Assembly: GCA_018335915.1 (NCBI GenBank)
Contig: JAGXRL010000045.1
Coordinates: 1-42,137 of the forward strand
Source of the DNA: Candidatus Latescibacterota bacterium
Lineage (GTDB): Bacteria > Hydrothermota > Tepidihabitantia > Tepidihabitantales > CAIPLT01
Direction of reading: 5' to 3'
DNA: 42,137 bases
Made by a program: the position numbers and the translations under genes. Of the stretch, positions 7,678 through 8,726 are shown one piece after another. Numbering within the stretch: position 1 is the stretch's first letter; each line of letters opens with the position of its first letter. The notes beneath the pieces were generated by a model, which saw nothing but the letters and a program-made list of their open reading frames with translations, searched no databases and was not told the DNA's origin.

Positions 7678-8133
7678 TTAATATTTTGTAATTTTTTGCC
7701 TCATATTTTTCAGGTGTGTGCCTTCCCAATAATATTTTTCGCATTTTAAACAACAGGCAAACTTGTCTTTAGTCTGAAAAATATAAAACGGCACTTTGCC
7801 CTTTACGTCATCTTTGGCAACCGAAACCAGCTTTTGATTGCACCTTAGACATCTTGTGAATGGCTTGATTTCCTTTTGCAGATTAAAATGTTTAATTATT
7901 TGCGATACCTGCTCCTCGGCCTTTTCACTGCGGATAAACAACACTTCAGGATATGCTTTTAATTTTGTGTTGCGGGTCAAAAAAATTCTGTCTGTTTGTT
8001 TGGCTGACTTAAGTGCGGACAAAGGATTTGCCGCTAAATCTTTTTTCTCAATATATAAAGCATCAATTCCCAGCACCCGTAGTTCACGGGCCAGCTTACC
8101 GAGCATAAAATCAACCAGAAATCTGACCGCCAT
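7678..8133 (-). CDS. Mut7-C domain protein (PIN-like fold with zinc ribbon)
   Basis: This 151-residue protein matches the Mut7-C family, a PIN-like putative RNase domain found alone in many bacteria and at the C terminus of Mut-7 exonucleases. The N-terminal part has FLVDFMLGKLARELRVLGID, a family hallmark with an acidic residue after the first strand, and RIFLTRNTKL in the middle. The C-terminal half has a four-cysteine ribbon: CLRCNQ, then CLKCEKYYWEGTHLKNM. The physiological substrate is unknown for the family. It is convergent with the M23 gene (stops 27 bases apart). The ATG at 8133 sits 7 bases after a -10 box, so its message is probably leaderless. Confidence 0.85.
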   Translation of the reverse strand: MAVRFLVDFMLGKLARELRVLGIDALYIEKKDLAANPLSALKSAKQTDRIFLTRNTKLKAYPEVLFIRSEKAEEQVSQIIKHFNLQKEIKPFTRCLRCNQKLVSVAKDDVKGKVPFYIFQTKDKFACCLKCEKYYWEGTHLKNMRQKITKY

Positions 8134-8140
8134 ATATCTT

Positions 8141-8169
8141 ATGATAGATTAGCATTTTGTTTTTGACAA
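8141..8169 (-). promoter_or_regulatory. promoter of the Mut7-C gene, giving a leaderless message
   Basis: The minus strand has TTGTCA (8164-8169), a 17-base spacer and TATCAT (8141-8146). The -10 box is separated from the ATG by 7 bases, so the transcript should begin at the start codon. Confidence 0.65.
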
Positions 8170-8189
8170 CATCTTTGTTTTAAATAGAA

Positions 8190-8221
8190 CGGGTGCGTCC
8201 TGGTTTTACAGGACGCACCCG
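8190..8221. repeat. perfect hairpin repeat, copy 1 (REP-like)
   Basis: A 13-bp perfect stem (CGGGTGCGTCCTG / CAGGACGCACCCG) encloses the 6-base loop GTTTTA. A relative with a compensatory stem change lies at 11531-11560 in the opposite orientation. On the minus strand it follows the structured RNA and is trailed by TTCTATTT, so it may act as a backup terminator, but the U-run is poor. The shared loop and stem suggest a dispersed palindromic repeat family. Confidence 0.8.
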
Positions 8222-8249
8222 CGATTAGTTCGCATATAAGACATTTATT

Positions 8250-8443
8250 AAAAAAGGAATTAGGGAAAGTGGGGTCAAGTTCTCAGACAGCTTGAAAGGA
8301 GGTTTGCATTGCATCACTATTCGGGGTCTGAATAGCGATGAAGGAGGTTAAGATGCTTTTTAGGGTGGGTATCTGAGAACACCTTTCCCTAATCCCTTTT
8401 ATATATTGACCAAATAAATTGTCAGAAGATGCTATTAGCTTAA
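8250..8443 (-). ncRNA. structured small RNA with two anti-Shine-Dalgarno-like segments (6S-like architecture)
   Basis: A consensus promoter on the minus strand would start RNA near 8443. From 8401 to 8252 the RNA folds into an 18-bp closing stem (8383-8400 with 8252-8269), a bulge, a second 9-bp stem (8372-8380 with 8279-8287), a large central bubble, and an 11-bp apical hairpin (8330-8340 with 8312-8322, 7-base loop). Two stem positions are A.C mismatches on the plus strand but G.U pairs on the minus strand, which supports minus-strand transcription. The closing stem ends in a U6 run and so doubles as a terminator. Each side of the bubble carries AACCTCCTT (8341-8349 and 8296-8304), the sequence of the 16S anti-Shine-Dalgarno tail. 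The size (about 150-195 bases) and long stem with open bubble recall 6S RNA, but no sequence proof of that is visible. SRP RNA, tmRNA and RNase P signatures are absent. Confidence 0.7.
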
Positions 8444-8449
8444 CAATTA

Positions 8450-8478
8450 ATTATAACAAATCTTGTTTTGGTTGTCAA
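8450..8478 (-). promoter_or_regulatory. consensus promoter of the small RNA
   Basis: The minus strand has exact TTGACA (8473-8478), a 17-base spacer and exact TATAAT (8450-8455). This is the strongest promoter by sequence in the window and it points at the structured RNA, not at a reading frame. The nearest minus-strand gene downstream (Mut7-C) has its own promoter. Confidence 0.85.
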
Positions 8479-8726
8479 CCCTGCGTTGTAAATCCGATGC
8501 TATATTTACTCTTCCAGTCTGGTCACAAATCTCCGTGTTTATTCTAACTCTGGTAGATGTTTGGAAAATCTTTAACATCAGACAGTCCGGTTCTTTCTGC
8601 CCGGTTCTTATCTGTCCTTCCTGTCATGTCTATATCAAAGATGTTATCACTCTTTATATTTCTGGATTTAATCAGAGAAACATTATTTTCTACATCAAAT
8701 CTAAATCTAAATAAAATTAGATTGTT
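8479..8726. other. intergenic stretch without a supported gene
   Basis: This stretch lies between the small RNA promoter and the dispersed repeat. An open minus-strand frame of 113 codons (8544-8885) runs through it and into the repeat, but it has no ribosome binding site and its upstream part consists of repeat sequence. The region could hold a decayed gene or upstream promoter sequence. No other structure was seen. Confidence 0.4.

Follow-up and report, generated by a model that had tools for sequence, protein, structure and literature searches.

The CiaR-dependent small RNAs (csRNAs) of streptococci carry sequences complementary to the Shine-Dalgarno (SD) sequence and to the AUG start codon in unpaired regions (PMC3091779). 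NfeR1, one of the alpha-r14 RNAs of alphaproteobacteria, represses the translation of ntrB through anti-SD motifs (PMC10746234), and IsrR of staphylococci acts on SD and AUG through C-rich regions (PMC9410917). Here, an element on the minus strand of a 42,137-nucleotide (nt) stretch of DNA from a Candidatus Latescibacterota bacterium (contig JAGXRL010000045.1; the whole stretch is called the window) was analyzed and compared with these systems. The element, at positions 8250–8478, is almost certainly a real small RNA gene; it is previously uncatalogued and occurs across a single order within a group of uncultured bacteria. In the following, G000 denotes the genome of the window and other G numbers its relatives, while f stands for family (G000 belongs to f1), g for a genus-level label and L for a locus.

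The new RNA appears to resemble the csRNAs and the alpha-r14 RNAs in mode and to be unrelated to them in architecture. A strong promoter of their own is common to the csRNAs and the new RNA (PMC3091779), and anti-SD and anti-start codon sequences lie together in a predicted unpaired region in f1, f3 and f5, with deviations in G006 and f4. Whereas csRNAs are multi-copy and place the unpaired block between two stem-loops, the new RNA is present once and forms one long rod with an apical hairpin and the block inside a bubble. The bacteria are unrelated and no sequence relation is apparent. With alpha-r14/NfeR1 the new RNA shares a conserved unpaired anti-SD in the face of highly variable stems, as well as repeated motifs (PMC10746234). 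However, the architecture of the alpha-r14 (cuckoo) RNAs is a different one, with the motif CCUCCUCCC in three hairpins and no anti-AUG described, whereas the new RNA has AACCUCC in a bubble and no CCUCCUCCC. IsrR, other C-rich small RNAs and 6C/B11 of actinobacteria likewise aim C-rich single strands at SD/start regions or G-rich 5′ untranslated regions, but these are plain C-rich loops in separate hairpins, and the available sections of the two papers report no CAU-5nt-CCUCC block (PMC9410917, PMC10470900).

Since the 16S ribosomal RNA (rRNA) of G000 ends with GGATCACCTCCTTTCTAAG, the motif of the new RNA does match the anti-SD, as the preliminary description of this locus had claimed. Copies of AACCTCCTT are located at 8349–8341 and at about 8304–8296 on the minus strand. 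Both are unpaired in the predicted fold, with mean unpaired probabilities of their CCUCC of 0.98 (5′ copy) and 0.96 (3′ copy). The two exposed copies of the preliminary description were thus found in the window RNA, but only the 5′ copy is kept throughout the order. The 5′ CCUCC is exposed in 22 of 23 genomes (unpaired probability 0.71–0.99), while a 3′ CCUCC occurs in 10/23, namely in f1, f4, G015 and G020, and its exposure in the latter two is doubtful (0.22 and 0.49). At the 3′ position, g6, g9 and f5 have CCCACC instead, and g12 lacks the copy altogether. What had been missed is that the block also holds CAU at start-codon spacing, except in f4. CATCT(T/C)AACCTCC was found in 19/23 genomes, and CAUCU(U/C)AACCUCC is kept in f1, f3 and f5 while the stems diverge beyond alignment between families; in these three families the block, CAUCUUAACCUCC, is predicted to be unpaired. 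Outside f4 it is the exact complement of GGAGG-5nt-AUG, i.e., GGAGG-UURAG-AUG. Judged by its letters, the block thus complements what would be an ideal translation-initiation region, SD and start codon together.

The window RNA folds on the minus strand with −55.5 kcal/mol (z = −5.3), and none of 200 shuffled sequences was equally stable; the plus strand reached z = −3.9 against shuffles. The closing stem P1 comprises a core of 14 base pairs (bp; 8396–8383 with 8269–8256) and 18 bp once A-U pairs are added, as previously given, and the apical stem P3 (8340–8330 with 8322–8312) has the 11 bp assigned to it before. The second stem P2 (8380–8370 with 8289–8279), described earlier as 9 bp, has 11 bp. 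When the sequences from the five f1 genomes were aligned by hand, all 36 × 5 = 180 pair-cells were standard pairs, and ten pairs had changed on both sides. Nine G-U and no A-C pairs were counted on the minus strand, in agreement with the earlier assignment of the strand from G·U versus A·C. A second alignment of five sequences, in which one f1 member was exchanged for an f4 sequence, had 100% of its cells paired and 17 pairs changed on both sides. None of 500 shuffles matched any of five measures, and sliding the partner lowered pairing from 100% to 40–51% (about 50% at a slide of one column). Since this alignment was fitted to the structure, it leans towards it; the hand count is free of that fitting. 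A short GCAU/AUGC pairing inside the bubble, predicted for G000, was rejected as it is not kept in G001 and G004. A mini-hairpin (A/G)AG-CAU-CU(U/C), in which CAU would form a triloop, was not adopted because it suits only f1 and some of f3, and not g6 and g9.

A DNA search of 60 relatives found the element in four other genomes of the same family, with 75–91% identity. With the covariance models R1, R2 and R3, a single copy was found in 23 of the 28 genomes of the order (f1 5/5, f4 3/3, f5 1/1, f3 14/18, f2 0/1). Model R3 was built from f3 sequences and one f4 sequence, without any f1 sequence, and recovered all five f1 copies with 70–84 bits (E 7e-22 to 6e-18). Therefore, the RNAs of these families form one family. 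The covariance models found no copy in G005, G016, G017, G021 and G026, which may be due to loss, to divergence or to an incomplete assembly. Beyond the order, 33 genomes of the same class and the remainder of the phylum yielded only weak model matches and no convincing ones. Those inspected (L099, L103, L104, L192–L196) had no matching long stems, and a weak match in G118 reads as the reverse complement of SD plus ATG. DNA matches in G050 and G056 (L014, L015) comprised only a promoter-like stretch of 44 nt, without matching stem or CCTCC bubble. A mobile element or repeat was excluded, as the element is present once in G000 and once per relative. Upstream of the RNA, on the same strand, a promoter with 10–12 of 12 matches was found in 23/23 copies (shuffled upstream sequence averaged 7–9), and opposite-strand promoters are weaker in the homologues. 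The promoter looks like a plain sigma-70 type, and the earlier reading of the window sequence as TTGACA-17-TATAAT with a start near 8443 agrees with it. No open reading frame (ORF) fitting the RNA was found, in line with the claim that this promoter drives none. In Rfam 15, no family reached its gathering threshold with the element or five relatives; among matches that span much of the RNA, IS102 scored best (15.9 bits versus a threshold of 46). A limited search of the literature on the phylum found no description of noncoding RNAs.

The 13-mer GGAGGTTRAGATG, complementary to the block, occurs in the f1 genomes inside the RNA only. In the other families it was found ten times outside the RNA, and 9/10 of these sites begin ORFs of at least 107–501 codons at that ATG; the ORFs are apparently different genes. 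A specific antisense RNA to one conserved messenger RNA (mRNA) was thus rejected, and the block complements a type of start region in use rather than one particular conserved mRNA. Among genes with naively called starts in samples of 60–140 kilobases per genome, the SD-AUG spacing had its mode at 4–5 nt, compared with 5 nt in the block, and by duplex energy the native block bound SD start regions better than blocks with a shuffled 5′ part, though weakly so in f1 (shuffles as strong: 8/300 in f3/f5, 44/300 in f1). Because the starts were naive and the samples small, the duplex result is suggestive only. In the sampled stretches, about a quarter of the f1 ATG genes had an SD-like motif; with so few, a background of many leaderless genes is plausible.

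Since the block mirrors a perfect gene-start signal, the RNA probably acts by pairing with mRNAs to block or tune translation. As the closest modes are those of the csRNAs, NfeR1 and IsrR, a trans-acting, free-standing structured RNA that masks the translation-initiation regions of several mRNAs is preferred, a reading whose chances we put at about even. The rod of two stems would hold the bubble open and keep GCAUCUUAACCUCC single-stranded, and the RNA, which we infer to be expressed, would use the block to pair in trans with several mRNAs at their SD-start regions. Further unpaired patches rich in C, among them the second CCUCC in genomes that have it, would assist, and the pairing would block binding of the 30S subunit and thereby repress translation. 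Several points weigh against this masking of start regions. The f4 block is AACCUCC only, without CAU, and in G006 the CCUCC is replaced by ACUCC. In f1 and in most of f3, no individual conserved mRNA was found to carry the exact 13-nt complement. The duplex-energy test is weak in f1, the spacing and duplex tests share the naive start calls, and both the transcript and its targets are predictions from sequence. An unpaired block that is conserved could just as well be bound by a protein. In this last direction lies the main rival, a sponge in the manner of CsrB or 6S. Its bubble would imitate the 3′ end of 16S rRNA (AUC-ACCUCCUUUC) and bind a protein or the ribosome itself, sequestering S1, an initiation factor or some other binder of C-rich RNA. 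It would agree with the ACCTCCTTTC that the second copy, AACCTCCTTTC, has in common with the G000 16S tail, with the number of unpaired C-rich patches on a single stable rod, as in multi-site sponges, and with the lack of a conserved exact mRNA target. However, much of the order has not conserved the second copy, and the 16S tail does not include the CAU that is conserved at start-codon spacing; we regard a sponge as possible, though rather unlikely. A more general role, in which this order-wide RNA is a decoy or mask that shifts translation as a whole away from SD-led messages and towards leaderless or weak-SD ones, is doubtful; in this lineage, only about one gene in four to one in three appears to have an SD.

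An RNA of the 6S type, the plainer alternative in the preliminary description, is similar to the new RNA in its long stem with open central bubble, its size (about 160–200 nt) and its one copy per genome. Yet the Rfam 6S model (RF00013) gave no match on 8100–8600 even at E 10, nor on the RNAs of five relatives at E up to 0.5, and the conserved bubble, unrelated in sequence, is based on CCUCC and not promoter-like. In addition, G000 has its own 6S gene (C103:36944–37118; 51.9 bits versus a cut-off of 46.4) directly after two ORFs that we take to be pheT and zapA, the usual position of ssrS. All five f1 genomes have such a separate 6S, which exceeds the curated cut-off in G000, G001, G002 and G004 and falls just short of it in G003. 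The new RNA is therefore not the genome's 6S gene. In g6, g9 and two of the three f4 genomes with the new RNA, a scan at E 0.01 with strict filters found no 6S, which would suit a second, divergent 6S-type RNA binding RNA polymerase through its open bubble; such a role is nevertheless improbable. Still less probable is a cis-acting leader that controls the downstream ORF with a Mut7-C RNase domain. This ORF does follow on the same strand, 6–114 nt away, in G000, G001, G003 and G004, but the downstream gene of G002 is a different one, RtcA is convergent with the RNA in f4, and PdxA is convergent in most other f3 genomes and in two g9 genomes, which have RtcA upstream on the same strand as the RNA. 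Where the downstream gene differs and is usually convergent, the RNA does not lead into it. Moreover, P1 with its T-run looks like a terminator, and the G000 Mut7-C ORF has its own promoter-like TTGTCA-17-TATCAT. Since the neighbours differ between genomes, the RNA is encoded by a free-standing gene, independent of any one neighbour. Finally, the plus strand contains two perfect SD sites, one of them in AAGGAGG-TTAAG-ATG, and might encode short leader peptides. This is hardly credible, as the frame and length are not conserved (MLFRVGI, MLFRVGA, MLWVGV, MLKGGC..., ML), and the G-U versus A-C count and the strong promoters both favor the minus strand.

The layout of the RNA in the window is given in Table 1. 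Its predicted length is about 195 nt, and roughly 130–200 nt in relatives, where leaders predicted from the promoters measure 32–45 nt (f1 and f4) or 0–14 nt (f3 and f5). P1 and the T-run likely form an intrinsic terminator. T-rich 3′ ends recur on the RNA strand in relatives, and the remaining four f1 genomes lack a T-run on the plus-strand side.

Table 1. Features of the small RNA gene in the window.
Feature	Position	Strand	Basis or remark
−35 box TTGACA	8473–8478	−	sequence; equivalent place scores 10–12/12 in 23 homologues
−10 box TATAAT	8450–8455	−	17 nt from −35 box; predicted start ~8443
5′ leader of RNA, variable	8401–8443	−	predicted from promoter position
P1 closing stem, 5′ arm	8383–8400	−	fold and covariation
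P2 stem, 5′ arm	8370–8380	−	fold and covariation
Core block GCATCTTAACCTCC in bubble	8343–8356	−	anti-start codon CAT 8355–8353, 5 nt, anti-SD CCTCC 8347–8343
P3 apical stem, 5′ arm	8330–8340	−	fold and covariation
Apical loop AGACCCC	8323–8329	−	C-rich in most homologues
P3 apical stem, 3′ arm	8312–8322	−	fold and covariation
Second anti-SD copy AACCTCCTTTC, 3′ side of bubble	8294–8304	−	not conserved order-wide
P2 stem, 3′ arm	8279–8289	−	fold and covariation
3′ bulge TTGACCCCA between P2 and P1	8270–8278	−	most homologues retain CCCC or CCCT
P1 closing stem, 3′ arm	8256–8269	−	fold and covariation
T-run after P1	8250–8255	−	with P1, likely intrinsic terminator

Several further observations were made on the RNA and its surroundings. 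The predicted RNA 5′ ends of G001 and G004 (L011, L012), GATGCTTTGGGTG and GATGCTTAGGTGG, complement CACCC..AAGCATC on the 5′ side of their own bubble, and such leader pairing could switch the exposure of the block; in G000 and G003 it is restricted to GTTAAG with CTTAAC. In G006 (L172, about 1593–1609), AAACTCC replaces AACCTCC in a copy otherwise near-identical to that of G009, and this variant is either a natural anti-SD mutant or an assembly error. A perfect, terminator-like 13-bp inverted repeat lies between the RNA and the Mut7-C ORF (8190–8221); it matches Rfam only weakly (ncr982, 26.8 bits versus a threshold of 50) and is possibly a back-up terminator. The Mut7-C ORF (7678–8170) has its promoter-like boxes just before the ATG and no SD, with a similar arrangement in G003, so that its mRNA may be leaderless. 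RtcA, an RNA 3′-phosphate cyclase, adjoins the RNA in f4 and two g9 genomes (L052, L078, L079, L080, L082), and this common neighbour supports the orthology of the RNAs. The genomes in which the strict scan found no 6S are G006, G007, G009, G011, G012, G013, G014 and G019; their 6S may be lost or divergent. Within the window, the Rfam 15 threshold was passed by large-subunit rRNA only, and a partial 23S rRNA gene lies at 1–2079 on the minus strand. A second, incomplete 16S on contig C115 of G000 is either a second rRNA copy or assembly contamination.

Taken together, the observation of the preliminary description was confirmed and its interpretation partly supported. An uncultured phylum gains a well-supported RNA family that Rfam 15 lacks, and this family illustrates that a 6S-like bubble-and-rod RNA need not be 6S. 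The core of the RNA, almost literally an anti-start-site, has been conserved although the stems diverged beyond alignment, and thus offers a clear testable prediction on translational control and initiation in SD-poor lineages.
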